From Terriglobia bacterium (lineage in GTDB: Bacteria; Acidobacteriota; Terriglobia; JAIQFV01), in contig JAIQFV010000013.1 of NCBI GenBank assembly GCA_020073085.1, forward strand, positions 124,001-188,000: DNA of 64,000 nucleotides. The letters run 5' to 3'. The notes under the pieces are model-generated. The model saw nothing but the letters and a program-made list of their open reading frames with translations. It did no database searches and had not been told where the DNA came from. The position numbers and the translations under genes were made by a program. Positions 37,542 to 55,730 of this stretch are shown here, piece by piece. Position 1 is the stretch's first letter; the number at the start of each line of letters is the position of its first letter.

Positions 37542-37605
37542 CTTGTGGTAGTAACTGGTGGTGGCCGTGCGTGCCCTGGGCCGGTTTGGGTGCCGGACCT
37601 ATCCT

Positions 37606-40600: not shown

Positions 40601-41016
40601 ACACCCTGCTGCGCCGGCGCTACGGCTCGCTCGGCTGGATCGCGCTGCCGAACATCGTGACCTTTCAGATCCTATTCCCGCTGATCTCGCCGCTGATGGA
40701 TTTTCTTATGATCGTGGCGGTCGCGCTCGCCGGACTCCAGCATCATTATCATGGGACGTCCTATTCCGCCACCAATCTGCTGCGCATCGCTTTGTTCTAT
40801 GCCATCTTTCTCGCCGTCGACTACTTCACCTGTGTGCTTGCTTTTGTCCTGGAGTGGAAGGAAGATTGGAAACTTCTGTTCTGGCTCTTCTGGCAGCGGC
40901 TGCTCTACCGGCAGGTGATGTACTACATCGCGGCGAAATCGGTGGTGGCCGCGATACGGGGCCGCTCCGTCGCCTGGGCCAAGGTGGAACGCAAAGCCAC
41001 CGTGCCGATGGGGTGA
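37606..41016 (+). CDS. Trifunctional GH18-like / polysaccharide deacetylase / GT2 synthase fusion protein
   Basis: 1136 residues from ATG 37606. After one membrane helix (about 25-48) comes a GH18-type barrel with GVNVDFENV (catalytic DxE near 229-231). Next a NodB deacetylase with TFDDGPD (near 503), NHTFTHP and RPPYG. Then two helices (720-750) and a processive GT2 synthase with VIVPAHNEE (near 768), DADT, EDTDL and QRFRW, plus three or four C-terminal helices. This joins in one chain what Pga-type exopolysaccharide systems split between a synthase and a deacetylase/hydrolase, so it likely makes and trims an N-acetylhexosamine polymer. Its last 39 codons are duplicated at 55118. ATG 37606 begins the membrane-proximal sequence; the open frame to 37558 looks unconserved. 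Confidence 0.88.
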   Translation: MADLNSHRPVFFDPHQRRWWKWRQGFFSLAALLAVVMVIFVANVLSQPRLTSLGLPDLTRAYRPVPGELSKPGMSPKERRKRRLNRMITRLENLNKGQGAKQSQVDTSIKEFSALMIAFFVNWDATSLTSFLAHYDKIDVLVPEWLQLGDANGTLIKKDDEEKARIVRDFIKHGQVDVKIMPLLNNFNGQVWESELLARFLANPHARKRLIDDLVPFLKENGFIGVNVDFENVPRKSQRDLHAFMQELYHALHTENLLVSQDLPASDGEFDYGFYAAVNDFIVLMNYDQHWENSDPGPVASQDWFLSNVQDRLEKIPHDKLVIALANYGYDWGVLGKKRYSGKSITFQDAMRTAKESDASPELDPDSLNPNFEYYDESNRVHQVWFLDGVTIFNQIAQTKALSPHGYALWRLGSEDPSVWHVLAEFQTDSKVADQLRPLKYGYDVDYNGDGELLTIQNVPQTGERDLTLDPQINLVTDESFPKLPLGYLIDRRGRQKNKMALTFDDGPDPHYTPEILDVLKEYKAPATFFLVGLEAESNIGIVRRMVEEGHEIGNHTFTHPNIGDVSARQLGIELNLTQRLFESKLGRESLFFRPPYGVDSEPEVPAEVQPLEVVQNMGYLLVGERPDSNDWYVRDPDQIVKTVLEQASRGNVLLLHDAGGNRDATVVALPRIITELRRNGYELVSLSALLGRTRDAVMPPVPGNEQWRARLDDVAFTFFSVLDHAFHWLFLIGIVFGIGRFIFIGTLAIIQEILRHREKFNENFTPFVSVIVPAHNEEKVIVRTIATLLRSNYPRFDVIVVDDGSTDTTAASVTEVFGKDPRVRLFVQENTGKAGALNFGLEQSVSEIIIALDADTLFDRDTMRKLVRHFEEKEVGAVAGNTKVGNRVNMLTRWQALEYITSQNLDRRAFDALNCITVVPGAVGAWRRDLIQKVGGFANDTLAEDTDLTISIRRLGYDIVFEDEAMAYTEAPDTIRNFIKQRFRWTFGTMQSVWKHRDTLLRRRYGSLGWIALPNIVTFQILFPLISPLMDFLMIVAVALAGLQHHYHGTSYSATNLLRIALFYAIFLAVDYFTCVLAFVLEWKEDWKLLFWLFWQRLLYRQVMYYIAAKSVVAAIRGRSVAWAKVERKATVPMG

Positions 41017-41040
41017 GGCCCACCCCCGGGCGATTCATCG
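40900..41040. repeat. 141-bp direct repeat, left copy (end of the GT2 fusion gene)
   Basis: Covers the last 38 codons and stop of the fusion gene plus 24 bp downstream; identical to 55118-55258. Confidence 0.95.
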
Positions 41041-41076
41041 CGGAGAACCTGCTTTCATCCTGATGCGGCGGTAACC

Positions 41077-41262
41077 CAACTCCGTAGGAGTGACATATTT
41101 ATAGCCTTACCGAACCCCTTCTCTCCCTATTGGGTTGAACCCCGTCAGGGGTGACATCTGAATTGCAATTCTTACCCACGACGTGAGATACATTTTCAAG
41201 CCAGTAGAGAGATGACGCGGGAGGTTAACAGCCTAGAATGGCACCCCTGACAGGGTTAGACC
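41077..41262. repeat. Partial MITE-like palindromic element, left copy
   Basis: Starts with the 29-bp terminal sequence (ACTCCGTAGGAGT hairpin) and contains ACCCCGTCAGGGGT and its inverted partner, but lacks the far terminal repeat found in the copy at 55328-55570. About four-fifths identical to it by eye. With the promoter and operator at 41307-41386 it accounts for the gene-free stretch 41017-41386. Confidence 0.75.
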
Positions 41263-41306
41263 ATGGAATGGTCTTAACTATCATGATATTAAAACACTTA
41301 CTGAGC

Positions 41307-41333
41307 TTGACAATCAATGGTTTCAGTTATAAC
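41307..41333 (+). promoter_or_regulatory. Candidate promoter of the AbiE-like pair
   Basis: TTGACA at 41307-41312 and TATAAC at 41328-41333, spacing 15 bp (short). The -10 box touches the operator-like repeats. Confidence 0.5.
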
Positions 41334-41386
41334 ATGGCCGTGGTAATTAACATGGCCATGTTATATATCATGGCCATGGTGGCCAT
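41328..41386. promoter_or_regulatory. Operator-like palindrome cluster before the AbiE-like pair
   Basis: A perfect 16-bp palindrome TAACATGGCCATGTTA (41348-41363) is flanked by two imperfect copies of the ACATGGCC/GGCCATG unit (41328-41346 and 41367-41386), the last touching the start codon at 41387. AbiEi-type antitoxins repress their own operon by binding repeats in this position. Confidence 0.65.
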
Positions 41387-42619
41387 ATGCCAATCAATCT
41401 TCAGGACCGACCTGCGTCAAGAGAGGGTGATTTCGTCCGCCTGCTTGCCAATCTGTTTCGTCGAGCGGGTTGGCGCATTGTGCGCGAACTCAAACCAGGC
41501 CCGGAAGATTGGCGCCCGGATCTTGTCGTTGATTCAGGAGACAAAAAATATATCATCGAAGTCAAAAGGGCCCCAGAAAGCCGGCGCGACCGGCTAATTC
41601 CCCTTTTATCTCAAGCCATCCTGCAGGCGCAGTCGGCTGCGCGGCAGTTTCCTGAGTCCGTCGCCCCGGTCGCGGTAGTCGTTTCCAAGCATATCCCCGA
41701 TTCAGCGGCGGACCAGGTCAAACAGTTCGCCATGCGCCACGTTCCCTCAGTGGGAATCGGAATGATTGACTCCGAAGGCTTCCGAGTCTTTTTCGGGTAT
41801 GGACTGGAAGCGTTCAACAGCGAGAGATCTGGCTCTTCCGCGCAGGTTTTGTCAGAGGAGCGTTGGCGGCCCTCACATATCTTCTCCGATCTCAACCAAT
41901 GGATGCTGAAAATTCTGCTCTCTGCGAATATCCCGGAATCCCTTCTGTCCGCACCCCGAGCGCGGTGCCAGAATGCTACGCAACTCGCGCAGGCAGCGGA
42001 TGTTTCGGTGATGAGCGCCTCCCGATTTCTCAGACAATTATCGATTGAGGGATTTCTGGACGTACGCAAAGGCTGGTTGCGCCTCGTGCGGACTGATGAA
42101 TTGATGAAGCGTTGGCTGAATGCAAACCCAAGGAGCGTCCGGGAGGTCCCTGCTCACTGGATCATCAGAGGCCGCGAGGAACAGATCTCCCTTGCGGTTC
42201 GCTCCTACGTTGCACATATGGACGCGACTGCAGCACGGCCTCGAAAATCTCGTGAAGGCCGACTCCCCCGCGTTCCACCTCGAATCTGCTTAGGACTTTA
42301 TGCGGCTGCTGATGCGCTTGGCTTCGGATTTGTGCGGGGCGTGCCACCGTATCTTTACCTGGAGCGGCTGGAATCCGAAGCTCTGAAACTGCTCGGACTC
42401 TCTACTGAGGACGCCGACCGGCATCCTGACGTCTATCTGAGAATCCCTCAGAATGATGAGGCGATCTTTCGTGCTCTAGTCCGACAGCAGGGTGTTCCAG
42501 TTTCTGACATTATCCAGGTATGGCTCGACGTGTCCAATCACCCTGCCAGAGGAAAAGAACAGGCAGAGGAGATCTGGCGCCGAGTCCTTGCACCAGCCAT
42601 CCATAAGGCAGAAGAATGA
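41387..42619 (+). CDS. AbiEi-like antitoxin/regulator with N-terminal PD-(D/E)XK-like domain
   Basis: 410 residues. The first 110 look like a restriction-endonuclease-like fold (D45 in RPDLVV, E58-V-K60 in YIIEVKR). A winged helix follows (ATQLAQAADVSVMSASRFLR, about 200-240), then a C-terminal region as in AbiEi-type antitoxins of type IV toxin-antitoxin systems (LGLYAAADALGFGFVRGVPP, YLYLERLESEALKLLGL). Its stop overlaps the next start (ATGA), so the two products are coupled. Which activity the nuclease-like part keeps is unknown. Confidence 0.65.
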   Translation: MPINLQDRPASREGDFVRLLANLFRRAGWRIVRELKPGPEDWRPDLVVDSGDKKYIIEVKRAPESRRDRLIPLLSQAILQAQSAARQFPESVAPVAVVVSKHIPDSAADQVKQFAMRHVPSVGIGMIDSEGFRVFFGYGLEAFNSERSGSSAQVLSEERWRPSHIFSDLNQWMLKILLSANIPESLLSAPRARCQNATQLAQAADVSVMSASRFLRQLSIEGFLDVRKGWLRLVRTDELMKRWLNANPRSVREVPAHWIIRGREEQISLAVRSYVAHMDATAARPRKSREGRLPRVPPRICLGLYAAADALGFGFVRGVPPYLYLERLESEALKLLGLSTEDADRHPDVYLRIPQNDEAIFRALVRQQGVPVSDIIQVWLDVSNHPARGKEQAEEIWRRVLAPAIHKAEE

Positions 42620-43440
42620 GGAGTAACAGCGAGAACGATCAATTTGCGCGATTAATCACTTCAATTGAGCCATGGCTGGGAGAGGTAGTGATCATCGGTG
42701 GGTGGGCTCACAGACTTTACCGCCTCGATGCCCGCGCACAACTGCTTGACTACATGCCAGTATTCACTGTAGATGCGGACATTGCGCTCCCATCCAACCT
42801 GAAAGTTGAAAGAAAGGATATTCGGGAATGTCTCGTCGACCATGGGTTCAAAGAGGATCGAATGGGGGAGGACAAGCCTCCGGTCACCCATTATCATCTC
42901 GCGGAGGATGGGACCGGTTTCTACGCTGAATTCTTGACCCCATCGACCGGGGGTGAACATCGGCGCGACGGAACGAGCAATTCGACCATGACGATCGCTG
43001 GGGTGGTCTCCCAGAAACTCAGATTCATTGAAATATTACTGAATGCTCCTTGGACAGTGGATCTGGATCAGACGAATGGCTTTCCGTTCGAGGAAGCGAT
43101 ACGAGTGAGAATTGCCAATCCGGCCGCTTTCCTGGCACATAAACTTCTGATCGAAAAGAGGCGAACTAGTACCAGGCATCCGAAGGACATCTTGTACATA
43201 CATGACACACTTGAAACCTTTGGCGGACGTCTTCAAGAGTTGAACGCGGAATGGAAGAATCATATCGGACCGATACTATCTCCGAAAAACGTCAGGCTGA
43301 TAGAGCGCTCAGCAGAGAGCCTCTTCCATGAAGTCACCGACCCCGTCCGCGAAGCGGCCCTGATCGCCAGCGGCAGGAGCCTTTCTCCAGAACGGATTCG
43401 CGAGATTTGTAATTGGGGATTGAAACAAGTCTTTGGTTGA
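42616..43440 (+). CDS. Nucleotidyltransferase-fold toxin-like protein (AbiEii-like)
   Basis: 274 residues. The nucleotidyltransferase signature is IIGGWAHRLYR (G28, G29) with TVDADIAL (D53, D55), the GG...DxD layout of Pol-beta-type minimal transferases. The fold resembles NTP_transf_8/GSU2403-type proteins. Encoded by an ATGA overlap with the winged-helix gene, it fits the toxin half of an AbiE-type pair, which typically blocks tRNA function or translation. Target not predictable. Confidence 0.68.
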   Translation: MRSNSENDQFARLITSIEPWLGEVVIIGGWAHRLYRLDARAQLLDYMPVFTVDADIALPSNLKVERKDIRECLVDHGFKEDRMGEDKPPVTHYHLAEDGTGFYAEFLTPSTGGEHRRDGTSNSTMTIAGVVSQKLRFIEILLNAPWTVDLDQTNGFPFEEAIRVRIANPAAFLAHKLLIEKRRTSTRHPKDILYIHDTLETFGGRLQELNAEWKNHIGPILSPKNVRLIERSAESLFHEVTDPVREAALIASGRSLSPERIREICNWGLKQVFG

Positions 43441-43780
43441 GTGCGCCTGGGGGATGCCAATCAAACTGCAAGCGTTTCATGCCCTCAATTCTTGAGAGCC
43501 ATCCCGGTACGCGAAAAGTGAAAACCATTCTCATACATATAGGGGTTGATTACAGTGACAGTCACTGGAAGAGGGGCACAGTCCCTCTGGGCTCAGCAGA
43601 CACCCCAGCGTATTTGCGTTCTTCAAACATATTACTTTTCGGAGGCTTTGGCGCTACAATGCTTGACAAGCCCTTGGGCTTGACCCCGGCCCGGGCGATC
43701 GGAAAAGTCGCTCGGATGACCCTTCGGAAATGTCTGCGATTAATCATCAGATCAACACAATAAGGTAGGACGAGTCGCGC
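43441..43780. other. Intergenic region upstream of hsdM
   Basis: 340 bp without a convincing gene. It holds a 16-bp perfect palindrome CAAGCCCTTGGGCTTG (43667-43682), with no T-tract after it; perhaps a regulator site. A TACAAT box lies just before it. Confidence 0.4.
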
Positions 43781-45781
43781 ATGAGCAGCAATAACCTCAA
43801 TTGGATTGCCAATTTCATTTGGGGCGTCGCCGATGACGTGCTCCGCGACATTTACGTTCGCGGAAAATACCGCGACGTGATTTTGCCGATGACGGTCATC
43901 CGGCGCCTCGATGCCGTCCTGGAACCGACGAAACAGGCGGTGCTGGATATGAAGAAGCGCCTCGACAAGTCCCGTATCACGAATCAGGACGCTGCGCTTC
44001 GGGACGCTGCAAAGCAGGCGTTCTACAATTCCTCACCATTTACCCTTCGCGATCTGAAGGCCCGCGCCAGGCAGCAGCAGCTCAAGGCCGACTTCGAAAC
44101 TTATCTCGATGGCTTTTCGCCCAACGTCCAGGAGATTCTCGACAAATTCAAACTCCGCAACCAGATCGAAACGCTTGTCGAAGCCGACATCCTTGGAAGC
44201 CTGATCGAAAAATTTCTCGACAGCTCCGTCAATTTGGGACCCCAACCGGTCCCTAACCTGGATGGCTCGGAACGACTGCCCGGACTCGACAACCACGCCA
44301 TGGGGACCATCTTCGAGGAACTAATCCGCCGCTTTAACGAAGAGAACAACGAAGAGGCCGGTGAACACTTCACCCCGCGCGATGTGGTGACATTGATGGC
44401 GGATCTGGTCTTCCTGCCCATCGCCGACCAGATCCAGTCAGGCACTTACCTGGTTTATGACGGCGCCTGTGGCACGGGTGGCATGCTCACAGTCGCGGAG
44501 CAACGGCTCACCGAGTTGGCAAAAGAACATGGAAAGGAGGTCTCGATCCATCTTTTTGGCCAGGAGGTTAACGCCGAGACCTACGCCATCACAAAAGCCG
44601 ATCTCCTGTTGAAGGGCGAAGGCGAAGAGGCGGAGAACTTTCGCCATTGTTCCACCCTTTCGCTGGACGGGTTTCCCGCTCGCGAGTTCGACTTCATGCT
44701 TTCCAACCCGCCCTACGGCAAGAGCTGGAAGACCGATCTCGAGCGGATGGGCGGCAAAGGCGATATTCGAGATCCGCGTTTTGTTATTGAACATGGAGGC
44801 GATCCGGAGTTCAGTCTTATCACCCGCTCGAGCGACGGGCAACTCATGTTCTTGGTGAACAAGCTGTCCAAGATGAAACATGGCACGCCGCTTGGCAGTC
44901 GCATCGCGGAAGTGCACAACGGATCGTCGCTCTTCACCGGGGATGCCGGACAGGGCGAGAGCAACATCCGCCGATGGATTCTCGAGAACGACTGGCTCGA
45001 AGCGATCATCGCGCTGCCGCTCAACATGTTTTACAACACCGGCATCGCCACCTACGTTTGGGTCCTCACCAACCGCAAGCCTGCGCACCGCCGGGGTGAG
45101 GTGCAGCTTATCGATGCAACTCAGTGGTTCAAGCCTTTACGCAAGAACCTCGGCAAGAAGAACTGCGAGTTGTCGGAAGAGGACATCCAGCGCATCTGCG
45201 ATACGTTCCTCGCGTTCAAGGAGACCGAGCAGTCGAAGATTTTTCCGAACGCCGCCTTCGGCTACTGGAAGGTGACGGTGGAGCGACCGCTCCGGCTCAA
45301 GGATGCGGACCCAAACCACGTTTATATTCCGAAAGAAATAAAGGCGCTCATGGAGAGCGCCAGGCGTGATGAGTCTGCTCAGCCGATCGTCCGGCGGATT
45401 CACAAGAAAGGGGCCGAGGCCGATCCGCTGTGTGGGCTGTTCGAGGCGACGGTGGACGGCAAGAAGTCCGTAGTCGAATATGAACCGGACTCCGAGCTCC
45501 GCGACACTGAACAAGTGCCCTTGCTGGAGAAAGGCGGAATCGAAGCGTTCATCCGCCGCGAAGTGCTGCCGCACGTGCCGGATGCTTGGTACGATCGCGA
45601 CAGCGTCAAGACGGGCTACGAGATCAGCTTTACGCGCTACTTCTACAAGCCGCAACCGCTGCGAACGCTGGAGGAGATCCGCACCGACATATTGGCGCTG
45701 GAGAAGGAGACCGAAGGGTTGCTGGACGAGATCGTCGGGGTCTCACGCGAAGACGCGAAGGCGCGAGGGGAGAAGGGGTGA
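43781..45781 (+). CDS. hsdM: Type I restriction-modification DNA methyltransferase subunit
   Basis: 666 residues. Motif I DGACGTGGM (near 227) and motif IV NPPY (near 309) define an N6-adenine methyltransferase; the N-terminal helical bundle and the AGEHFTPRDVV entry are typical of HsdM. It modifies adenine at sites chosen by HsdS. The last dozen codons fall inside a repeat unit (45744-45766) that borders the next gene, so the C terminus may have been rebuilt by that insertion. The stop overlaps the GTG of the next gene. Confidence 0.95.
   Translation: MSSNNLNWIANFIWGVADDVLRDIYVRGKYRDVILPMTVIRRLDAVLEPTKQAVLDMKKRLDKSRITNQDAALRDAAKQAFYNSSPFTLRDLKARARQQQLKADFETYLDGFSPNVQEILDKFKLRNQIETLVEADILGSLIEKFLDSSVNLGPQPVPNLDGSERLPGLDNHAMGTIFEELIRRFNEENNEEAGEHFTPRDVVTLMADLVFLPIADQIQSGTYLVYDGACGTGGMLTVAEQRLTELAKEHGKEVSIHLFGQEVNAETYAITKADLLLKGEGEEAENFRHCSTLSLDGFPAREFDFMLSNPPYGKSWKTDLERMGGKGDIRDPRFVIEHGGDPEFSLITRSSDGQLMFLVNKLSKMKHGTPLGSRIAEVHNGSSLFTGDAGQGESNIRRWILENDWLEAIIALPLNMFYNTGIATYVWVLTNRKPAHRRGEVQLIDATQWFKPLRKNLGKKNCELSEEDIQRICDTFLAFKETEQSKIFPNAAFGYWKVTVERPLRLKDADPNHVYIPKEIKALMESARRDESAQPIVRRIHKKGAEADPLCGLFEATVDGKKSVVEYEPDSELRDTEQVPLLEKGGIEAFIRREVLPHVPDAWYDRDSVKTGYEISFTRYFYKPQPLRTLEEIRTDILALEKETEGLLDEIVGVSREDAKARGEKG
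45744..45766. repeat. Left inverted repeat of the GxxExxY cassette
   Basis: Three GCGAAGRC-type units within the hsdM 3' end; inverted counterpart at 46162-46185 (about 21 of 23 positions match). Confidence 0.75.
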
Positions 45782-46236
45782 AGAACATCGAAGGAGTCTC
45801 CTCGGAGATCGTGGACGCGGCTTTTCACCTTCACAAGGACTTGGGACCCGGCCTACTCGAATCGGTGTATGAGGCTGTCCTGGCCCGACTGCTGGAGTGG
45901 CGGGGGCTGCGGGTCGAGCGTCAGAAGCCTATCGCAATCAGCTATGAGGGATTGCAATTCGATGAGGGGTTTCGGGCTGATCTGCTGGTTGAGGGGAAGG
46001 TTGTGGTGGAGCTGAAGTCCGTTGAAACGTTTGCCCCGGCTCAAGGCAAACAATTGTTGACCTACCTGCGGCTGCTGAATCTCCCGCTGGGCTTGCTGAT
46101 CAATTTCGGCGCGGCCACCTTCAAAGAAGACGTAAAGAGGGTTGTGAACAACCATCGCGATTTCGCGTCTTCGCGCCTTCGCGTGAACCAGGAACTCGCG
46201 CGAAGCCGCGAAGGACGCGAAGGGAAAGAATCATGA
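45778..46236 (+). CDS. GxxExxY-family protein inserted between hsdM and hsdS
   Basis: 152 residues from GTG 45778. The family motif is GPGLLESVY, with the PD-(D/E)XK-like core FRADLLVEGKVVVELKSVE (D...ExK). GxxExxY genes have no known function and occur near GCGAAGRC-type repeats, as here. Both ends overlap its neighbours (GTGA with hsdM, ATGA with hsdS), so all three are translationally coupled. The C-terminal 20 residues are encoded by repeat sequence. A restriction or repair nuclease accessory role is a guess. Confidence 0.8.
   Translation: MKNIEGVSSEIVDAAFHLHKDLGPGLLESVYEAVLARLLEWRGLRVERQKPIAISYEGLQFDEGFRADLLVEGKVVVELKSVETFAPAQGKQLLTYLRLLNLPLGLLINFGAATFKEDVKRVVNNHRDFASSRLRVNQELARSREGREGKES
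46162..46185. repeat. Right inverted repeat of the GxxExxY cassette
   Basis: Complement of the left repeat; further direct GCGAAG units follow at about 46195-46228. Confidence 0.75.
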
Positions 46237-47651
46237 TTGCCGACCTCAAGTCCTATCCTGCGATGAAGGATTCCGGCGTTCCGTGGCTGGGGGAGGTGCC
46301 GGAGCACTGGAAAATCGTTCCGGGGCGTGCCTGCTATCGCGAGAAAAAGGTGCCCAACTTAGCATCGAGAGAGGCGACCGTCCTTTCCCTCAGCTATGGA
46401 CAAATCGTCGTCAAGCCGGCAGAGAAACTTCACGGCCTCGTTCCAGCCTCGTTTGAGACATACCAGATCGTTGATCCGGGCGACATCGTCATTCGCCCGA
46501 CTGATCTCCAGAATGATTGGAACAGCTTGCGTTTCGGCCTCTCCCAGCAACGGGGCATCATCACATCGGCTTACATGTGCTTCGACACAAAAGACTCTCT
46601 TGACCGAAACTATGGCTACGTCCTGCTTCACGCATACGACTTGAAAAAAGTGTTCTATGGGCTCGGCTCTGGTCTACGTCAGAATCTGAATTGGAACGAT
46701 TTTAAGTACCTCCCTTGCCTTATGCCTTCAAAGGACGAACAATCCACCATCGTCCGGTTCCTCGACCACACAGACCGGCGCATCCGGCGTTACATGCGCG
46801 CGAAGCAGAAAATAATCAAACTGCTGGAGGAGCAAAAGCAGGCCATCATCCACCACGCCGTCACCCGCGGCCTCGACCCGAACGTCCGCCTGAGACCGTC
46901 TGGCGTGGAATGGCTCCGCGACGTGCCGCAGCATTGGGAGGTTCGTCGCAACGGTCAACTCTTTGCCCAGCGCAACCAAACTGGGTTCGCCGAACTTCCT
47001 ATCCTGGAGGTCTCGCTCAAAACGGGCGTCCGCGTGCGTGACTTCGAGAATTCGATACGCAAGCAGATTATGTCCGACCGCGCCAAGTATAAGGTCGCAC
47101 ACAAAGGCGACATTGCTTACAACATGATGCGGATGTGGCAAGGCGCGGTTGGAATCGCCCCGGTCGATGGATTGGTGAGCCCGGCCTATGTCATTGCCAG
47201 ACCGCTTGCCGGCGTTGAGGTCCGCTACTTCAACAATCTATTCCGCACAGCCTCCTATATGAGTGAGGTGGACAACTGCTCGCGTGGCATCGTCAAGGAC
47301 CGCAATCGATTGTATTGGGAGGATTTCAAGCAGATTTATTCCCCATATCCCCCCGTGGGCGAGCAAACGCAGATTGCTGATGCCATCGAGGAAAGCACGC
47401 AAGGCCTGAATTGCGCGATCGATCAGATGGAGCGTGAAATTGCCCTGCTCCGCGAATATCGCACCCGTCTGATCGGCGACGTGGTGACCGGCAAGCTGGA
47501 TGTGCGTGAAGCGGTTGCGAATCTGCCCGAGGAAGTCGCCGAGCCGGAGGCGCTAGAGGAGGCCGAGGAGTTGGACGACTCCGCCACTGGCGAAGAAATC
47601 GAAGTGGACGAGGCGATTGAGACTGAAGAGGCGGCCGAAGTCAGCGAGTGA
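46233..47651 (+). CDS. hsdS: Type I restriction-modification specificity subunit
   Basis: 472 residues. Two target-recognition domains each open with a WLGEVPEHW/WLRDVPQHW motif (about 20 and 220), separated by a conserved helix (LLEEQKQAIIHHAVTRGLDP). HsdS chooses the bipartite DNA site for HsdM and HsdR. The long acidic C-terminal tail (EAEELDDSATGEEIEVDE) is unusual for the family. ATG overlaps the preceding stop (ATGA). Confidence 0.94.
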   Translation: MIADLKSYPAMKDSGVPWLGEVPEHWKIVPGRACYREKKVPNLASREATVLSLSYGQIVVKPAEKLHGLVPASFETYQIVDPGDIVIRPTDLQNDWNSLRFGLSQQRGIITSAYMCFDTKDSLDRNYGYVLLHAYDLKKVFYGLGSGLRQNLNWNDFKYLPCLMPSKDEQSTIVRFLDHTDRRIRRYMRAKQKIIKLLEEQKQAIIHHAVTRGLDPNVRLRPSGVEWLRDVPQHWEVRRNGQLFAQRNQTGFAELPILEVSLKTGVRVRDFENSIRKQIMSDRAKYKVAHKGDIAYNMMRMWQGAVGIAPVDGLVSPAYVIARPLAGVEVRYFNNLFRTASYMSEVDNCSRGIVKDRNRLYWEDFKQIYSPYPPVGEQTQIADAIEESTQGLNCAIDQMEREIALLREYRTRLIGDVVTGKLDVREAVANLPEEVAEPEALEEAEELDDSATGEEIEVDEAIETEEAAEVSE

Positions 47652-47668
47652 TCTTGGCGGAAAGGACC

Positions 47669-47685
47669 TTTACCCAAAAGGTAAA
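47669..47685. promoter_or_regulatory. Operator-like palindrome 1 of the HigBA-like module
   Basis: TTTACC-N5-GGTAAA, perfect dyad, just upstream of the TTGACA box. Confidence 0.65.
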
Positions 47686-47693
47686 TAATCCAT

Positions 47694-47723
47694 TTGACAT
47701 TCAAAGGGTCCCTATGTCATTAT
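47694..47723 (+). promoter_or_regulatory. Candidate promoter of the HigBA-like module
   Basis: TTGACA at 47694-47699 and CATTAT at 47718-47723, spacing 18 bp, between two operator-like palindromes. Confidence 0.55.
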
Positions 47724-47724
47724 C

Positions 47725-47741
47725 TTTACCCAAGAGGTGAA
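47725..47741. promoter_or_regulatory. Operator-like palindrome 2 of the HigBA-like module
   Basis: TTTACC-N5-GGTGAA; the second site, 56 bp from the first centre-to-centre, near the presumed transcription start. Confidence 0.6.
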
Positions 47742-47770
47742 GATCGGCAGCCCAAGTCAAGGCACATCAC

Positions 47771-48073
47771 GTGGAAGTTATCTTTCGAACGCGTAAGCTG
47801 GAAAAAGAATACTGTGACCATCAACGAGCCGATAAAGCCTATGGGCCAGATGTGGCGCGGCGCTATATTGGGCGCATCAATCTCATCAAGGAGACTTTGG
47901 ACATTGAGGACCTCAAGCGACTTCCCGGACTCCGGTGCCACGAACTGAAAGGGGACCGGCGAGGGTTCTGGGCAGTGAATCTCACAGGACGATACCGCCT
48001 GATCTTCACCCTCGAAGGCAAGCGTTTGGAGATTGTTAGGATCCAGGAGGTCAGCAAACATTATGATGACTAG
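47771..48073 (+). CDS. higB: HigB-type (RelE/ParE superfamily) toxin
   Basis: 100 residues from GTG 47771. RLPGLRCHELKGDRRGFWAV followed by NLTGRYRLIFTLEG and IVRIQEVSKHY are typical of HigB/plasmid-maintenance toxins, ribosome-dependent mRNA endonucleases. Toxin precedes antitoxin as in HigBA loci. The stop overlaps the start of the next gene by 11 nt. Confidence 0.85.
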   Translation: MEVIFRTRKLEKEYCDHQRADKAYGPDVARRYIGRINLIKETLDIEDLKRLPGLRCHELKGDRRGFWAVNLTGRYRLIFTLEGKRLEIVRIQEVSKHYDD

Positions 48074-49154
48074 AGAAGCAGTTCATTCCAATCTGCCGAT
48101 TCCTCCAGGAGAATACTTGGAGGAGGTCGTGGGCGAGTTGGGTATGACCAAGGATGAGCTGGCGGCACGCATGGATCGACCCGCCACAAAGTTAAGCCAA
48201 ATCTTCAAGGGGGATAAGGCCATCACCGCTGATACCGCGCTGCAACTTGAAAAAGTGGTCGGGGTTCCTGCCCATATCTGGATTGGGCTGGAGGCGGAAT
48301 ACCGCCTGTCCCTGGCGCGACAGCAGGAATCTGGTAAGCCACAGGAGACGAAGGATGCATCGGGACTTTTGAAGAGATTTTGCTATACAGAATTGGTGAG
48401 GCTCAAAGCAGTGGAGAAGCGCGTGACTCTTGCCGAAAAGGTTACAGAACTTGAGCGCTTCTTCGGTGTGACCTCGCTGACCTGTGTTCGAGATCTCCGC
48501 CGTTACCAGGCGGCATTTCGTTGCGGGAAATCGGACAAATGGGCGCCTTCTCCCGAGGCGCTTGCGGCATGGCTTCGATTTGGGGAGGTCAGAGGACAGG
48601 GAATTCAATGTCAGCCCTTTGATCGGGCACGGCTGGAACAGGCGATTGACAACTTGCGTGAAATGACCATTCAATCTCCCGATAAATTTCTGAAACCTCT
48701 GCGCGAGACACTGGCTGAAGCCGGTGTGGCCATGGTGTTGTGTCCCCATTTTTCGAAGACCCGGACCCACGGGGCGACCTTCTGGCTGAGGCGCGACAAG
48801 GCTGTCCTCATGATGAGCAATCGAGGGAAGTGGGCCGACATCTTCTGGTTCAGTTTGTTTCATGAAATCGGGCACCTTCTACTGGAAAACTGGAGGGCCG
48901 TGTGCGTGGAAGTTGGCGCCCAAGACGACCAGGAAAAGAGGGCCGACAAATTCGCTGGTGATAGGTTAATCAATCCTGAAGAGTACAAAATATTTGTCAG
49001 AAGGCGGGCATTCTATCCGACTGATATTGAAACGTTCGCCAAACGCGCTGGGGTTCACCCAGGGATTGTGGTAGGACGTCTGCAGCATGACAAGCTGCTC
49101 AAACCGAACTGGCATAATGGCCTGCGAGTACGATTCAAATGGGCCGATCAATGA
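48063..49154 (+). CDS. HigA-type HTH antitoxin fused to an ImmA/IrrE metallopeptidase domain
   Basis: 363 residues from ATG 48063. An N-terminal HTH (GMTKDELAARMDRPATKLSQ, then IFKGDKAITADTALQLEKVV) is the HigA DNA-binding part. A C-terminal zinc-peptidase signature HEIGHLLLE with an ImmA/IrrE-like surrounding (about 230-320) follows. It probably neutralises the toxin upstream and represses the operon through the TTTACC-N5-GGT sites; the peptidase could link its turnover to a stress signal. It precedes hsdR by 36 nt. Confidence 0.85.
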   Translation: MMTREAVHSNLPIPPGEYLEEVVGELGMTKDELAARMDRPATKLSQIFKGDKAITADTALQLEKVVGVPAHIWIGLEAEYRLSLARQQESGKPQETKDASGLLKRFCYTELVRLKAVEKRVTLAEKVTELERFFGVTSLTCVRDLRRYQAAFRCGKSDKWAPSPEALAAWLRFGEVRGQGIQCQPFDRARLEQAIDNLREMTIQSPDKFLKPLRETLAEAGVAMVLCPHFSKTRTHGATFWLRRDKAVLMMSNRGKWADIFWFSLFHEIGHLLLENWRAVCVEVGAQDDQEKRADKFAGDRLINPEEYKIFVRRRAFYPTDIETFAKRAGVHPGIVVGRLQHDKLLKPNWHNGLRVRFKWADQ

Positions 49155-49190
49155 CGACGTATTGACAGTCGCTTAAAGGGAACCTGGCCG

Positions 49191-52100
49191 ATGAAATATA
49201 CGGACACCTCCGAAGCCGGGCTCGAAACTCTCATTGTAGAACATCTTACCGGCCGGGCCCCGTTGGACGCCCCAGCCTCTGGACGAATTGTTGGCGCTCA
49301 AGAGCTGACCGAGAGTCGCGCAGGAGCAGGTTATGAGCTGGGCGATTCAAAGGATTTCGACCGCGACCATGCAGTGGACCTCGCGAAACTATTGGGATTT
49401 CTCGAAGCCACACAACCCAAGATTATCGAACAATATGCTCTCAGCACCGATGGCCCCAAGCGACAGCAGTTTCTGAGCCGGCTGCAGGGGGAAATGGAAA
49501 GGCGCGGCGTGGTGGACTTGCTCCGCCACGGCTTCAGGCACAGGCCGGCACAGATTGATCTCTTCTACGGCACTCCATCGCCCGGAAACCTGAAGGCCGC
49601 GGAACGGTTCGCGGCCAACATCTTCAGTGTTACCCGCCAACTGCGCTACAGCAAGGACGAAACACAGCTCGCCCTCGACCTGTGCTTGTTCATCAACGGC
49701 CTGCCCGTAGCCACCTTTGAACTCAAGAATCGATTGACGAAGCAGACTGTGGACGATGCGGTACAACAATACAAGCGGGACCGCGATCCGCGAGAGCTGC
49801 TCTTCCATTTTGCTCGCTGCCTGGAGCACTTTGCCGTCGACGATCAGGAAGTGCGCTTTTGCACCCATCTTCAAAGCAAGGACTCATGGTTCCTGCCTTT
49901 CAATAAAGGCTGGAACGACGGCGCCGGCAATCCCCCCAATCCCAATGGGATTAAGACCGACTACCTGTGGCGACAAGTCCTCACGCGTGAAGGCCTGACC
50001 GACATTATTGAAAACTACGCCCAGGTGGTGGAGGAAAAAGACGAGCGCACGGGGCGAAAGAGGAAGGTGCAGATCTTTCCGCGATACCACCAGCTTGACG
50101 TGGTCCGGAAGCTTCTGGCCGATACCCGACAAAAGGGGGCTGGTCGTCGGTACCTCATCGAGCATTCGGCAGGCAGCGGCAAGAGCAACTCTATCGCCTG
50201 GCTGGCGCACCAACTGGTCGGCCTCGAAAGGGGGAGCAAATCCCTTTTCGAATCGGTAATCGTCGTCACGGACCGCCGCGTGCTCGACAGGCAGATTCGG
50301 GACACAATCAAACAGTTTGCTCAAGTGACGGCAACGGTGGGTCACGCCGAACACTCCGGGGACCTCAGGAAGTTCCTAACCACAGGCAAGAAGATCATCA
50401 TCACCACGGTGCAAAAATTCCCGTTTATCCTCGACGAGATCGGCAACGAACACCGGGGACATACCTTCGCCATCCTGATCGATGAGGCCCACTCCAGCCA
50501 GGGCGGACGCACAGCGGCCAAAATGAACATCGCACTTTCAGAGCAAGGCGGGGAGGTCGACGAAGAAACCTTCGAGGATGCCATCAATCGGATCATGGAA
50601 GCGCGAAAGATGCTTCCTAATGCCAGTTACTTCGCGTTTACCGCGACTCCCAAGAACAAAACTTTGGAAGTGTTTGGCGAACCCGTTCCAGAAGGCGAAA
50701 AGCATAAGCATCGGCCCTTTCACAGCTATACGATGAAGCAAGCCATACAGGAAGGCTTCATTTTGGACGTGCTGCGAAGTTACACACCGGTGGGGAGTTA
50801 CTATCGGCTGATGAAAACGGTGGAAGACGATCCGGAGTTCGACGTCAAAAAGGCTCAGAAGAAGCTTCGGCGATACGTCGAATCGCACGAGCAGGCCATC
50901 CGCGAAAAGGCCGAGATTATGGTGGATCACTTCCACGACCAGGTGCTTGCCAAGGGTAAGATCGGCGGCAAGGCCCGGGCCATGGTGGTGACCAGCGGGA
51001 TTGACAGAGCCATCCAGTACTATCACGCGTTCACCGATTATTTGAAAGAGCGCAAGAGCCCCTGGAAGCCGATCGTGGCGTTTTCCGGCGAACATGAGTA
51101 CGGCGGACGTAAGGTGACCGAGAGTTCTTTGAATGGGTTCCCGAGCAACACAATTGTGGACCGAATTCAGGAGGATCCATACCGCTTTTTGATCTGCGCT
51201 GACAAATACCAAACTGGTTACGACGAGCCGCTGCTGCACACCATGTACGTTGACAAACCACTGTCGGGAATCAAGGCAGTCCAGACGCTTTCTCGCCTCA
51301 ATCGGGCGCATCCCAAGAAGCATGACACCTTCGTGCTCGACTTCATGAACGACGCCGAAGTGATCCGGGTATCATTCGAGCCATACTACAGGACGACGAT
51401 CCTGAGCGAGGAAACTGACCCAAACAAACTGCACGATCTGAAGTCGGATCTGGACGGTTTTCAGGTTTATGCCAGCGATCAGGTGGACCAGCTGGTGAGG
51501 CTCTATTTGAACGGCGCCGACAGAGACCAACTGGATCCGATCCTGGATGCCTGTGTTGCGATTTATGTTGAGACGCTCGACGAAGATGGGCAAGTGGATT
51601 TCAAGGGCAAGGCCAAAGCGTTTGTCCGGACCTATGGCTTTCTGGCTTCGATCTTGCCATTCGCAAACGCCGAATGGGAAAAACTGTCCATCTTCCTGAA
51701 TTTTCTCATTCCCAAGCTGCCTGCGCCTGTGGAACCGGATATGGCCAAGGGAATCTTGGAAGCCATTGACATGGAAAGCTATCGGGTAGAAGTCCAATCC
51801 TCGATGAGCATTGCCTTGCCCGACCAGGATGCGGAGATAGAACCCGTACCGACGAGTGGTGGGGGCCGCATGCCGGAGCCGGAAATGGACCGATTGAGCA
51901 ATATCATCCGGGACTTCAACGACCTTTTCGGCAACATCGAGTGGAAGGACGCAGACAAGATCCGGAAGGTCATCAGTGAGGAAATCCCAGCGAAGGTGTC
52001 GGCAGATAAAGCCTACCAAAACGCGATGAAGAACTCCGACAAAGAAAATGCCCGCATCGAACACGACAGCGCATTGCAGCGGGTGCTTGTCGAGTTGCTC

Positions 52101-52205
52101 TCGGACCACACAGAACTGTTCAAACAGTTCCAAGACAACCCGGCTTTTAAGAAGTGGCTTGCGGACACAATCTTCTCAGTGACCTACGCTGCCCCGGCGA
52201 CATGA
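49191..52205 (+). CDS. hsdR: Type I restriction endonuclease subunit R
   Basis: 1004 residues. The nuclease motif is VATFELKNRLTKQ (ExK near 176), followed by the SF2 translocase with HSAGSGKSN (Walker A near 327), LIDEAH (431) and TGYDEPLLHTMYVDK-type helicase motifs, and a helical C terminus that contacts the methylase. It cuts unmodified DNA after ATP-driven translocation. Complete at normal length. ATG 49191 has an AAAGGGA site. It completes the hsdM-S-R set although two unrelated modules separate the genes. Confidence 0.95.
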   Translation: MKYTDTSEAGLETLIVEHLTGRAPLDAPASGRIVGAQELTESRAGAGYELGDSKDFDRDHAVDLAKLLGFLEATQPKIIEQYALSTDGPKRQQFLSRLQGEMERRGVVDLLRHGFRHRPAQIDLFYGTPSPGNLKAAERFAANIFSVTRQLRYSKDETQLALDLCLFINGLPVATFELKNRLTKQTVDDAVQQYKRDRDPRELLFHFARCLEHFAVDDQEVRFCTHLQSKDSWFLPFNKGWNDGAGNPPNPNGIKTDYLWRQVLTREGLTDIIENYAQVVEEKDERTGRKRKVQIFPRYHQLDVVRKLLADTRQKGAGRRYLIEHSAGSGKSNSIAWLAHQLVGLERGSKSLFESVIVVTDRRVLDRQIRDTIKQFAQVTATVGHAEHSGDLRKFLTTGKKIIITTVQKFPFILDEIGNEHRGHTFAILIDEAHSSQGGRTAAKMNIALSEQGGEVDEETFEDAINRIMEARKMLPNASYFAFTATPKNKTLEVFGEPVPEGEKHKHRPFHSYTMKQAIQEGFILDVLRSYTPVGSYYRLMKTVEDDPEFDVKKAQKKLRRYVESHEQAIREKAEIMVDHFHDQVLAKGKIGGKARAMVVTSGIDRAIQYYHAFTDYLKERKSPWKPIVAFSGEHEYGGRKVTESSLNGFPSNTIVDRIQEDPYRFLICADKYQTGYDEPLLHTMYVDKPLSGIKAVQTLSRLNRAHPKKHDTFVLDFMNDAEVIRVSFEPYYRTTILSEETDPNKLHDLKSDLDGFQVYASDQVDQLVRLYLNGADRDQLDPILDACVAIYVETLDEDGQVDFKGKAKAFVRTYGFLASILPFANAEWEKLSIFLNFLIPKLPAPVEPDMAKGILEAIDMESYRVEVQSSMSIALPDQDAEIEPVPTSGGGRMPEPEMDRLSNIIRDFNDLFGNIEWKDADKIRKVISEEIPAKVSADKAYQNAMKNSDKENARIEHDSALQRVLVELLSDHTELFKQFQDNPAFKKWLADTIFSVTYAAPAT

Positions 52206-52387
52206 GCCCAAGCTGCTGCCAGTGTCCATGTAACGGGGGGTCTATTTCTCCCCAAGAAACTGGCGAAATAATCACATGAATAGGCAGTTTCTATGAAAAG
52301 TGGTGGGTCTCTGCAATCCCCCAATGCTACTTAGCTATTTCCAGGGACCCGACGCCCATCATCGATCTCCTTTCAATAAATCGGGTC

Positions 52388-54901
52388 TCAATGGATGACC
52401 GTTTGAAGTTCGGCCATCTTGATATCATCCGCAAGAACCTTTAATTGGGTGTCCAGAGGATGTCTTTTGCATCCCTCTAATACCTCGGCGTGCAGTTCAC
52501 GTAGTTTTCCAGCCTTTTGTTCTTTTACAATCCAAGCATTTGTAAATGCCAGCATTTGACTTCCGAGGACATGGTACGGATATGGGTCATTGGACCCGAT
52601 TCGTACAATCTGCTGTCTAAGCCTAGCAAGCCCCTGTCTTACAAGGTCATTAGCTTCCATCAACGACTTGGCTTCGACCCCCTTCTTCATCAATAGATAG
52701 CCCATAGCTGTTCCGACCCATGGGTGATCAGGCATCAAAGCCTCGGCTTGGAGCAAGTAGTTTTCTGCAAAATCGAGATCTCCGAACTCAAGCTCATAAG
52801 ACCCGTATTGGAGCCAGTACTGGCCGTCTCCAACGAAGTGTTGGCGGACTGATTCGTATATTCTCCTGCAGATATCCTGCTGTCTAAGAAAGATCAAATG
52901 CAAGCTTCTGTGGTTGATGACATCTCTGTACAGTTTAAATGTTCTGCTTGCCCTACGCTCCTTGGAGGGGGGGAGGTCGTGAGCCAACAATTCCAAATAC
53001 CGAATATACGCTTCGGCCAAAATATCTCTAGGCGCAGCATTAGAAATAACATGCTCAGCGATCAATGGATGACGAATTTGAAATTTCAGTGGATCTTCCG
53101 CCGTCGGGATGAGTATCCCTGATAGATTTTCATCAATTAAACTGGAAGTCTCATTTGGTGAGGTATCCATTGATGCAATCAACTGCCCACGCGAGACTGC
53201 ATAATTGTACATTGAAGGAATTGCTGAAATTAGGTACAGCAATTTAGCCCTGTACGGCTGAATCTCGTTAAATTCTTCCTCAATGATTTCATCGAACCCT
53301 TTGCCTCTGGTCGCCTCGCGCATTGCAATCAAGATTTGCTTCTTCGCCTTGGTTTGGAAAACCCTAACTCTTTCTTCCACGTCGAGATGTCTCAGCCAAC
53401 CCAAAAGACCATGAGTTTCCAATGTCTGCAAAATTGCCTTAATATCGGACATCGATAAATCTGGAACTTTCAATTCTTGGAGATTTCGTACGCCCTGCAG
53501 TTGGTATCTCTTCACCGCGATCTCATTAGTCCTTGCTACCAATAGGACAGCTGGCATGGATGTGAGTTCGTCACATCTGGCGATCACCTCACAGATTAGT
53601 CGTAAATCAGCAGTTGCCCCGTCGAAGACAAGTACCACGCGACGGTCCAGAAACCGCAAGTATTCGATTATATATTCAGGTAATGGGCGACACTCCCCGT
53701 CGGCAAAGAAGACGGAAAAGCCTTCAGCAACTAAGGTGGCAGAAACGCGTTTTGCGATGGTGCTCTTACCGGATCCTGCTGCCCCGTTGAGAAGTACAAC
53801 TGGAGTATTCTTCGAGTCAGAAGAGAGAACCCTCCTGATCAACTCTACTGCTTCAGTGTTAATGTCTCTATGAGCGTCGAATCCAGCAAAAATATCGTCC
53901 CACCGGGGAGGACTCCCCAAAAGGAAATGACTCCTGACCGTCCTTTCCACCACTCGGCTCTTTACTGGCCTGAAGACAGAAAAGAAATTCTCTGCATTCT
54001 TAATTTGTGGGAATTGGATTCCGGACCGTTGGAATTCGAATAATTCTTCGAGAGAAGGGTCAATGTTCCGAAGGACGTCTTCCCGGTGTGGAATTGAAGC
54101 ACTTGAGGATGTCAGCTCTTCAAAAAAATCTCTTCCCGTGGCTTCTATGGGGATGACATTGAAATCAGTCAAAACCATCCTTTTTGCGGGTGAAATCTGC
54201 GGACAAACAATAAACGATTTTGGCCGTTTCTCAGCCACCTCTTTAGTACGTCTTTGACGGATCGCAATGTATTCCCAGAAGAGTGGCTCGTCCAGTTCTG
54301 TGCCGATAAACAGCGTAGGATAGGTGGTAAAGTCTCGCACAAAATGGTCATACCAAACGTCCTGTTCAGCAGCTCTACGCCCATACTCCAATGGACCAAA
54401 AGTAAGGCCATGTACTGGATCGTTCAACGATCCATGCAGTTTTATAAATTGTATGCTTCGAAGAAAGGCATCTCTGTCATGGTATTCACACGGAGCGACA
54501 ACACTCATTATCCCAGTGCCACCGCTGTATTTGTGATAAATGTTTTCCACAAGATCATCTATGTTAGTTGAGTATATCCTGTACCAAAACCACTTTGATA
54601 TATTTGCGTACCAAGCCGGAACTGATGACACTGATAAATGGCTTTTAAGGAATTGGATCAAAGTGTCCCGTCCTTTTTTGTGATTCAGTGCTGCCTGATA
54701 AAGGATGCCAAGAGATGTGCCATCATAATCGCCTTTATATTCGAGGTATTTCCACATTTGTTTGGCAAGCTCACGTGAGGTGGGAATCTTCTCGCCCAAC
54801 AAATTTACTGCATCCGTGGAAAAACCAGCTCCCAAGAAAAGGACGACGTCATTCCTATGCAAATGACGTTCGAGATACTCGAGATCGTTTCCGTCAATCA
54901 C
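52388..54901 (-). CDS. SIR2-STAND NTPase, Avs5-like antiphage candidate
   Basis: 837 residues. SIR2-like NAD-binding domain: FLGAGFS (residues 22-28), STNIDDL and FIKLHGS. Central P-loop NTPase of STAND type with GAAGSGKST (about 370-380) and Walker B RRVVLVFDGA (about 415-425). The C terminus (620-837) is helical with TPR-like pairs. SIR2-STAND proteins include the Avs5 antiphage group, in which recognition of a phage component by the helical part triggers NAD depletion. The gene reads against the rest of the island and is visibly more AT-rich than its neighbours, consistent with transfer. The target is not predictable. Confidence 0.8.
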   Translation of the reverse strand: MIDGNDLEYLERHLHRNDVVLFLGAGFSTDAVNLLGEKIPTSRELAKQMWKYLEYKGDYDGTSLGILYQAALNHKKGRDTLIQFLKSHLSVSSVPAWYANISKWFWYRIYSTNIDDLVENIYHKYSGGTGIMSVVAPCEYHDRDAFLRSIQFIKLHGSLNDPVHGLTFGPLEYGRRAAEQDVWYDHFVRDFTTYPTLFIGTELDEPLFWEYIAIRQRRTKEVAEKRPKSFIVCPQISPAKRMVLTDFNVIPIEATGRDFFEELTSSSASIPHREDVLRNIDPSLEELFEFQRSGIQFPQIKNAENFFSVFRPVKSRVVERTVRSHFLLGSPPRWDDIFAGFDAHRDINTEAVELIRRVLSSDSKNTPVVLLNGAAGSGKSTIAKRVSATLVAEGFSVFFADGECRPLPEYIIEYLRFLDRRVVLVFDGATADLRLICEVIARCDELTSMPAVLLVARTNEIAVKRYQLQGVRNLQELKVPDLSMSDIKAILQTLETHGLLGWLRHLDVEERVRVFQTKAKKQILIAMREATRGKGFDEIIEEEFNEIQPYRAKLLYLISAIPSMYNYAVSRGQLIASMDTSPNETSSLIDENLSGILIPTAEDPLKFQIRHPLIAEHVISNAAPRDILAEAYIRYLELLAHDLPPSKERRASRTFKLYRDVINHRSLHLIFLRQQDICRRIYESVRQHFVGDGQYWLQYGSYELEFGDLDFAENYLLQAEALMPDHPWVGTAMGYLLMKKGVEAKSLMEANDLVRQGLARLRQQIVRIGSNDPYPYHVLGSQMLAFTNAWIVKEQKAGKLRELHAEVLEGCKRHPLDTQLKVLADDIKMAELQTVIH

Positions 54902-55117
54902 CCTAGACCTTTCTGAAAATGAAATCGACCAGATTTACTCTTGCATGGCGATTATAATACAAGAAGAGAGGGAGATTGAAAGTCATTGAAAATTAGGGAC
55001 AATCCGGACACCAGGATGAAACGGCAGGAACCTGAAGGTGAAGTGCTGTGCAGGAATGGACATTGGCCAAGTTATCTCCGGTTTGTGTTATGTCCCGATC
55101 TGAGTCGAATAGCAATT

Positions 55118-55234
55118 CTGCTCTACCGGCAGGTGATGTACTACATCGCGGCGAAATCGGTGGTGGCCGCGATACGGGGCCGCTCCGTCGCCTGGGCCAA
55201 GGTGGAACGCAAAGCCACCGTGCCGATGGGGTGA
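55118..55234 (+). pseudogene. 3' remnant of the GT2 fusion gene
   Basis: The last 38 codons (LYRQVMYYIAAKSVVAAIRG and on to VPMG) plus stop of the 37606-41016 gene, without a start or upstream homology. It is part of the right direct repeat. Confidence 0.85.
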
Positions 55235-55258
55235 GGCCCACCCCCGGGCGATTCATCG
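55118..55258. repeat. 141-bp direct repeat, right copy
   Basis: Identical base for base to 40900-41040, offset 14218 bp. Marks the right edge of the defence island. Confidence 0.95.
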
Positions 55259-55327
55259 GCCTTCATTCCTGTGCAACAAAGCGTCGCCAGCGCTGAGAAC
55301 CTGCTTTCATCCTGATGCGGCCGGGAC

Positions 55328-55570
55328 CCAACTCCGTAAGAGTGGCCTACTTATAGCCTCACCAAACCCCTTCCCTCCCTATTTGGTTAAACCCCGCCAG
55401 GGGTGACATCTGAATTACTATTCTCTCCCAAGACGAGGGATACATTTTCAAGCTTGTAGAGAGAGGGTGATGGAAGGTTAGCAGCCCATATGGCACCCCT
55501 GACGGGGTTAGACCTAAGAAGAAGAAAAGGGGGCGGCCGGTCTATAAATATGCCACTCCTACGGAGTTGG
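55328..55570. repeat. MITE-like element with nested inverted repeats
   Basis: 243 bp with 29-bp terminal inverted repeats (55328-55356 and 55542-55570, 26 of 29 matching) and an inner inverted pair around ACCCCGCCAGGGGT and ACCCCTGACGGGGT. No open frame. A partial, diverged copy lies at 41077-41262. Confidence 0.8.
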
Positions 55571-55730
55571 ATTATGGCAGATTCGAAATGAACCCGTGTC
55601 TGCTTCCCATCCATCCGACCTTCGCTTACAATGGTATTGGTCTTTCATCGCAATCACAGAGTATCGACGGTCCCTTAATGGGAGCACGTGTTTTCACGCA
55701 CAAACGGTAACTCCCTTGACTGTGAGGCCC

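Follow-up and report, generated by a model that had tools for sequence, protein, structure and literature searches.

A putative Avs5-like SIR2-STAND antiphage receptor within an inserted defence block of a Terriglobia bacterium

In the window analysed here (64,000 nucleotides of contig JAIQFV010000013.1 of a Terriglobia bacterium), a set of type I restriction-modification (R-M) genes is met head-on by a gene whose product joins a SIR2 domain to a STAND NTPase. This raises the question of whether the gene encodes an NLR-like antiphage sensor related to Avs5, as an earlier reading based on the sequence alone had proposed, and how it came to occupy its present location. Our answer, to which we assign a probability of roughly 0.78, is that the gene arrived as defence-island cargo and that its product alone forms an NLR-like antiphage receptor of the Avs5 (SIR2-STAND) type. 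The features on which this answer is based are collected in Table 1.

The gene, present as a single copy in its own genome, starts with GTG and encodes a protein of 837 amino acids, without an internal stop. Two Pfam families were recognised in the protein above their gathering cut-offs. These are: (i) SIR2_2 (PF13289; residues 109–245, 40.6 bits vs a cut-off of 24.5) and (ii) nSTAND_NTPase5 (PF25199; residues 325–467, 73.8 bits vs a cut-off of 34), the latter being a curated STAND family, which establishes the relationship of the central domain to STAND NTPases. The co-occurrence of SIR2 and STAND NTPase in one chain, noticed in the sequence-only reading, was thereby confirmed. Three other Pfam models, i.e. 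nSTAND3 (PF20720; 19.7 bits vs a cut-off of 27.2), NACHT and NB-ARC, stayed below their cut-offs. The TPR-like C terminus that had also been proposed is well founded: although Pfam TPR models gave no match to the protein itself, helical hairpins extend from ~608 to 836 in the AlphaFold2 model, several full-length homologues have TPR calls in their C-terminal part, and a three-sequence subfamily profile matched HAT and designed TPR structures in this region. Much of the sequence of the C-terminal part is poorly conserved among relatives.

An alignment of eight SIR2-STAND proteins, including two close relatives of the solved EfAvs5, revealed invariant columns at, among others, G24, G26, N113, D115, G157, G200, G376, G378, K379 and R457. 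Further motifs of the SIR2 domain are LHG (residues 155–157) and the acidic E205. Judging by its position after the Walker B strand, Arg457 is the likely counterpart of Arg438 of PaAvs5-1.

Table 1 Features of the SIR2-STAND gene, its product and the surrounding block (positions are those of the window).
Feature	Position	Strand	Basis
Inserted defence block, 14.1 kb (R-M genes, TA genes, SIR2-STAND)	41041..55117		absent from G001 and G002, whose flanks are collinear
Left copy of perfect 141-bp direct repeat (3' end of glycosyltransferase gene)	40900..41040	+	two copies only in genome
Right copy of 141-bp direct repeat, just upstream of SIR2-STAND gene	55118..55258	+	two copies only in genome
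hsdM	43781..45781	+	HsdM_N and N6_Mtase
hsdS	46233..47651	+	Specificity_I profiles, 320 bits
hsdR, convergent with SIR2-STAND gene	49191..52205	+	HSDR_N and SWI2_SNF2; hsdR 217 bits
SIR2-STAND-helical repeat protein, 837 aa	52388..54901	-	open frame; Pfam SIR2_2 and nSTAND_NTPase5; AlphaFold2 fold match to EfAvs5 9jap
SIR2-like NADase domain, residues 1-265 (boundary approximate)	54107..54901	-	SIR2_2 at 109-245; fold match to KomC and ThsA SIR2 domains
GAGFS NAD-binding motif, residues 24-28	54818..54832	-	motif and numbering identical to those reported for PaAvs5-1 (PMC12931631)
STNID motif (catalytic Asn113, Asp115), residues 111-115	54557..54571	-	N113 and D115 invariant across 8 proteins
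HG motif, His156-Gly157	54431..54436	-	G157 invariant; Asn instead of His in L022 and EfAvs5-like proteins
STAND NTPase module, residues 325-600, NTPase core and helical region (end approximate)	53102..53929	-	PF25199 at 325-467; AlphaFold2 secondary structure
Walker A GAAGSGKS, residues 373-380	53762..53785	-	motif reading; eight-protein alignment
Walker B-like VVLVFD, single acidic residue Asp427, residues 422-427	53621..53638	-	motif reading
Arg457, candidate arginine finger/sensor	53531..53533	-	invariant across 8 proteins
C-terminal helical-repeat (TPR-like) domain, residues 610-837, presumed sensor	52391..53074	-	AlphaFold2 hairpins; TPR calls in homologues; HAT/TPR profile matches

With the protein and seven relatives as input, AlphaFold2 gave a model (mean pLDDT 78.4, pTM 0.58) that was compared with structures in the PDB. 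The top fold match was EfAvs5 (9jap, a helical structure of SIR2-STAND; E-value 7.3e-29, 904 columns), followed by the AVAST5 filament (9nc9; 4e-18) and human SAMD9 (8e-15), and each of these matches spans nearly the whole chain. Despite the strong E-values of the fold search, the global TM-score vs Avs5 is low (0.29) and the rmsd large; we read this as matching domains that are probably placed differently, a filament being compared with a monomer model of moderate pTM. A search of the model against a viral fold library returned mainly AAA-type ATPases, and PDB phmmer matches to guanylate kinase were set aside as P-loop noise.

Profile comparison with hhalign linked the window subfamily to the EfAvs5 relatives (99.9%, E-value 5e-33) over 711 columns, which begin at residue 4 and extend into the C-terminal repeats, while the identity of the protein to EfAvs5 is only ~16–28%. 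L020, a protein from an Escherichia coli plasmid, has a sequence nearly identical with that of 9jap, which ties this comparison to a solved, named Avs5. In the tree, the SIR2-STAND protein lies in a well supported clade separate from the EfAvs5-like proteins.

Formal family tests were less favourable. The Avs5 equivalog of NCBIfam (NF041814) reached 22 bits on the protein vs a curated cut-off of 1000, and none of 119 Acidobacteriota genomes contained a match over that cut-off. However, L020, an EfAvs5 orthologue, also has no NF041814 match at an E-value of 0.01 and scores similarly with nSTAND3 (33.2) and nSTAND5 (32.8); consequently, the NF041814 and nSTAND3 tests are weaker than they look. 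The NF041814 model covers only part of Avs5. Assignment to nSTAND5 and not nSTAND3 was likewise dropped as a strong argument for a separate family, because the two models overlap on EfAvs5-like proteins. Among the Avs5 features, SIR2_2 with GAGxS, TNxD and HG, Walker A, D427, R457, helical repeats and an Avs5-like fold are all present in the window protein. The Avs5-like architecture claimed in the sequence-only reading thus stood in profile search, structure prediction and fold search, whereas the cut-offs of the Avs5 equivalog and nSTAND3 were missed. By architecture and fold, the protein is Avs5-like in the broad sense, without being filed as a strict Avs5; it is distantly related to a known system and does not form a new kind.

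EfAvs5 (AVAST type 5) shares the domain order SIR2–STAND–helical repeats and the whole-chain fold, and its catalytic Asn/Asp, P-loop Lys and conserved Arg align with those of the window protein; on the other hand, in EfAvs5-like proteins NG replaces HG and the P-loop (SDLGNGKS) is degenerate. EcAvs5 (NF041814) and the AVAST5 filament (9nc9/9nah) are alike in architecture and fold, but with the sequence profile 9nah is matched in its SIR2 part only. The three Pseudomonas aeruginosa proteins PaAvs5-1, PaAvs5-2 and PaAvs5-3, compared here by their description (PMC12931631), have GAGxS at residues 24–28, TNxD, the P-loop Lys, a Walker B with a single acidic residue and C-terminal repeats. The STAND domain of Avs5 is labelled nSTAND3 in that study, as opposed to nSTAND5 in the window protein. 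Other SIR2 defence proteins are more remote: DSR2 and ThsA share a SIR2-type NADase effector and a partial fold match, but do not have a STAND module in such an arrangement and show weak or no sequence similarity. The full-length ThsA profile of PADLOC gave a weak match (20 bits) over the SIR2 part only, with a STAND domain following instead, and the Dsr (DSR1/DSR2) profiles of NCBIfam and PADLOC gave no match at an E-value of 0.01.

Mutagenesis of PaAvs5-1 has demonstrated that the SIR2 Asn and Asp, the Walker A Gly and Lys, the single acidic Walker B residue and the conserved Arg matter for immunity (PMC12931631). The motif residues of the window protein match those required in PaAvs5-1, including the single acidic Walker B residue, and this, together with the Pfam domains, the fold and profile matches to Avs5, the R-M and Abi neighbours of the nearest relative and the island setting, argues for an antiphage receptor. 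The points against it are the identity of 16–28% to EfAvs5, the TM-score of 0.29, the pTM of 0.58, the missed Avs5-equivalog and nSTAND3 cut-offs and a PADLOC match limited to a weak one with ThsA. By analogy with Avs5 and other SIR2 defence proteins, a sequence of events may be proposed. As long as the cell is at rest, the C-terminal helical repeats would keep the STAND NTPase closed. Binding of a phage protein to the repeats, and of NTP at the site formed by Walker A, Walker B and Arg457, would let the STAND modules assemble into oligomers, probably filaments of the kind seen with EfAvs5, and the SIR2 heads, brought together in this way, would then hydrolyse NAD+ to ADP-ribose and nicotinamide, stopping the infection at a cost to the cell.

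The same architecture and NADase switch might respond to something other than a phage protein. Some SIR2 effectors linked to short Argonautes respond to plasmids, transformation or other stress, and a trigger of this type would suit the occurrence of homologues on plasmids and viral contigs; moreover, the trigger is not readable from the sequence and the C-terminal part varies considerably between relatives. We nevertheless regard a non-phage trigger as unlikely, given that each of the proteins with the full architecture characterised in PMC12931631 (EcAvs5, EfAvs5 and PaAvs5-1 to -3) defends against phages, and that the gene has R-M genes as neighbours, with AbiE genes at the same site in a sister genome.

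Single-sequence searches of genome contigs and viral contigs found no relatives of the presumed antiphage receptor; matches there required two- and three-row alignments. Apart from the gene itself, the 60 nearest genomes yielded only a weak match of 69 residues, and phage records yielded no match, while PF25199 exceeded its cut-off in 17 of 396 Acidobacteriota genomes. The nearest relative found is a protein (L022, identical with L003) from a Thermoanaerobaculia metagenome-assembled genome, which belongs to the same phylum as the genome of the window; the identity is ~30–32% over the whole length. The next one, L023, is encoded on a viral contig and is 22% identical. Both group with the window protein in the tree (support 97/94 and 89/94). 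The L022 gene lies immediately downstream of genes for a C5 cytosine methyltransferase, Vsr and a type II restriction enzyme (400 bits) and adjoins an AbiJ_NTD4 gene. On its contig, the L023 gene lies between phage tail-type genes and an integrase. The defence-gene neighbours of L022 and the context of L023 support a putative defence role.

Another group is composed of SIR2-nSTAND5-TPR proteins of ~1050 amino acids (L016, L017, L019, L037, L038 and L040), found on plasmids of Vibrio, Methylobacterium and Klebsiella and on viral contigs. These share SIR2_2, PF25199 and TPR with the window protein (hhalign 100%), but their C terminus is ~200 residues longer; they carry no annotation beyond SIR2 family or hypothetical protein and are apparently uncharacterised. 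In L017, the extra C-terminal segment has a weak cold-shock domain call. On a Klebsiella plasmid (L018, 5158–8178), the SIR2-STAND gene is annotated as two ORFs beside IS4321; the L019 gene is full-length.

The position of both the window gene and the L022 gene beside R-M loci could mean that the protein guards its neighbours, being triggered once the R-M enzymes are disabled or displaced by a phage, in which case the island would act as one layered system. This is improbable: only two loci are concerned, their R-M systems differ in type (type I in the window, type II at L022), the SIR2-STAND gene is convergent with hsdR, and further homologues on a viral contig and a plasmid have no adjoining R-M genes. 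Proximity is, furthermore, explained by a shared island, and the base composition suggests a separate origin. Equally small is the chance that the window protein represents a separate nSTAND5-type SIR2-STAND branch with a sensor tuned to the state of co-resident R-M systems, whereas known Avs5 sense a structural or early protein of the phage.

The earlier observations that the gene is transcribed against the R-M genes and differs from its neighbours in base composition were both correct. Within the 64-kb window, to which the composition comparison is confined, the G+C content of the gene is 45.7% (0.457) vs 56.4 ± 1.4% in windows of equal length from the rest (z = -7.6), and its GC3 is 46.5% (0.465) vs 0.69–0.74 for hsdM, hsdS and hsdR. 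On these grounds, the SIR2-STAND gene looks like a separate arrival within the block.

The block itself is flanked by a glycosyltransferase/polysaccharide deacetylase gene (37558–41016) on the left and by polA on the right. It lies between the two copies of a perfect 141-bp direct repeat, which duplicates the 3' end of the glycosyltransferase gene. Both flanks are collinear in the two genomes compared, one of the same genus (G001) and one of the same family (G002). In G002, nothing is inserted and ~245 bp separate the matched flanks, while in G001 the site holds ~2.6 kb with AbiEi and AbiEii, the latter broken by an in-frame stop (L028, 17559–19786). As the site is empty in one genome, contains AbiE genes in another and a 14-kb block in the window, the glycosyltransferase–polA interval is likely a defence hotspot. 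Separate acquisition, suggested in the sequence-only reading on the basis of composition, is now supported by synteny with these two relatives as well.

A dispersed REP-like repeat is present at both island edges (41041–41262 and 55288–55592), with inverted partners, and has 29 matches in the genome; its copy at the inner left edge argues that the block belongs to the organism and is not a contamination. Contig ends of the assembly share overlaps of mostly exactly 139 bp, which is close but unequal to the length of the 141-bp repeat, and the junction at the repeat could still be an effect of assembly. None of the ORFs within the block was recognised as an integrase.

A PDDEXK_3 protein and a HigB/HigA-ImmA pair are encoded among the type I R-M genes of the block (43781–52205). 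The pair, located between hsdS and hsdR (47771–49154), comprises a HigB-like toxin and a HigA-ImmA/IrrE-type protein (PADLOC PD-Lambda-2_B, 86 bits). At 41387–43440, a gene for a 410-aa protein with no Pfam match overlaps a PF12281 nucleotidyltransferase gene by 4 bp; inspected by eye, the protein has a nuclease-like N terminus and a winged helix, and the two genes look like an uncharacterised toxin-antitoxin or defence pair.

Foreign composition may also point to a gene that has decayed or fallen silent after horizontal transfer. The GTG start would be in line with this, as would the consensus scan, in which no convincing sigma-70 promoter was found upstream. Such a remnant is highly improbable, as the 837 codons are uninterrupted and all catalytic motifs are intact; the promoter scan was restricted to a single type of promoter, and it is the AbiEii gene at the same site in G001, not the SIR2-STAND gene, that has an in-frame stop.

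A putative, intact receptor of the Avs5 type in this block extends Avs5-like receptors to a branch in Acidobacteriota for which no characterised member was found; the window protein shares ~30% identity with the nearest relative found. The NCBIfam Avs5 model and PADLOC overlook proteins with this architecture, among them an orthologue of the solved EfAvs5, and Avs5 counts made with these tools are therefore likely too low.
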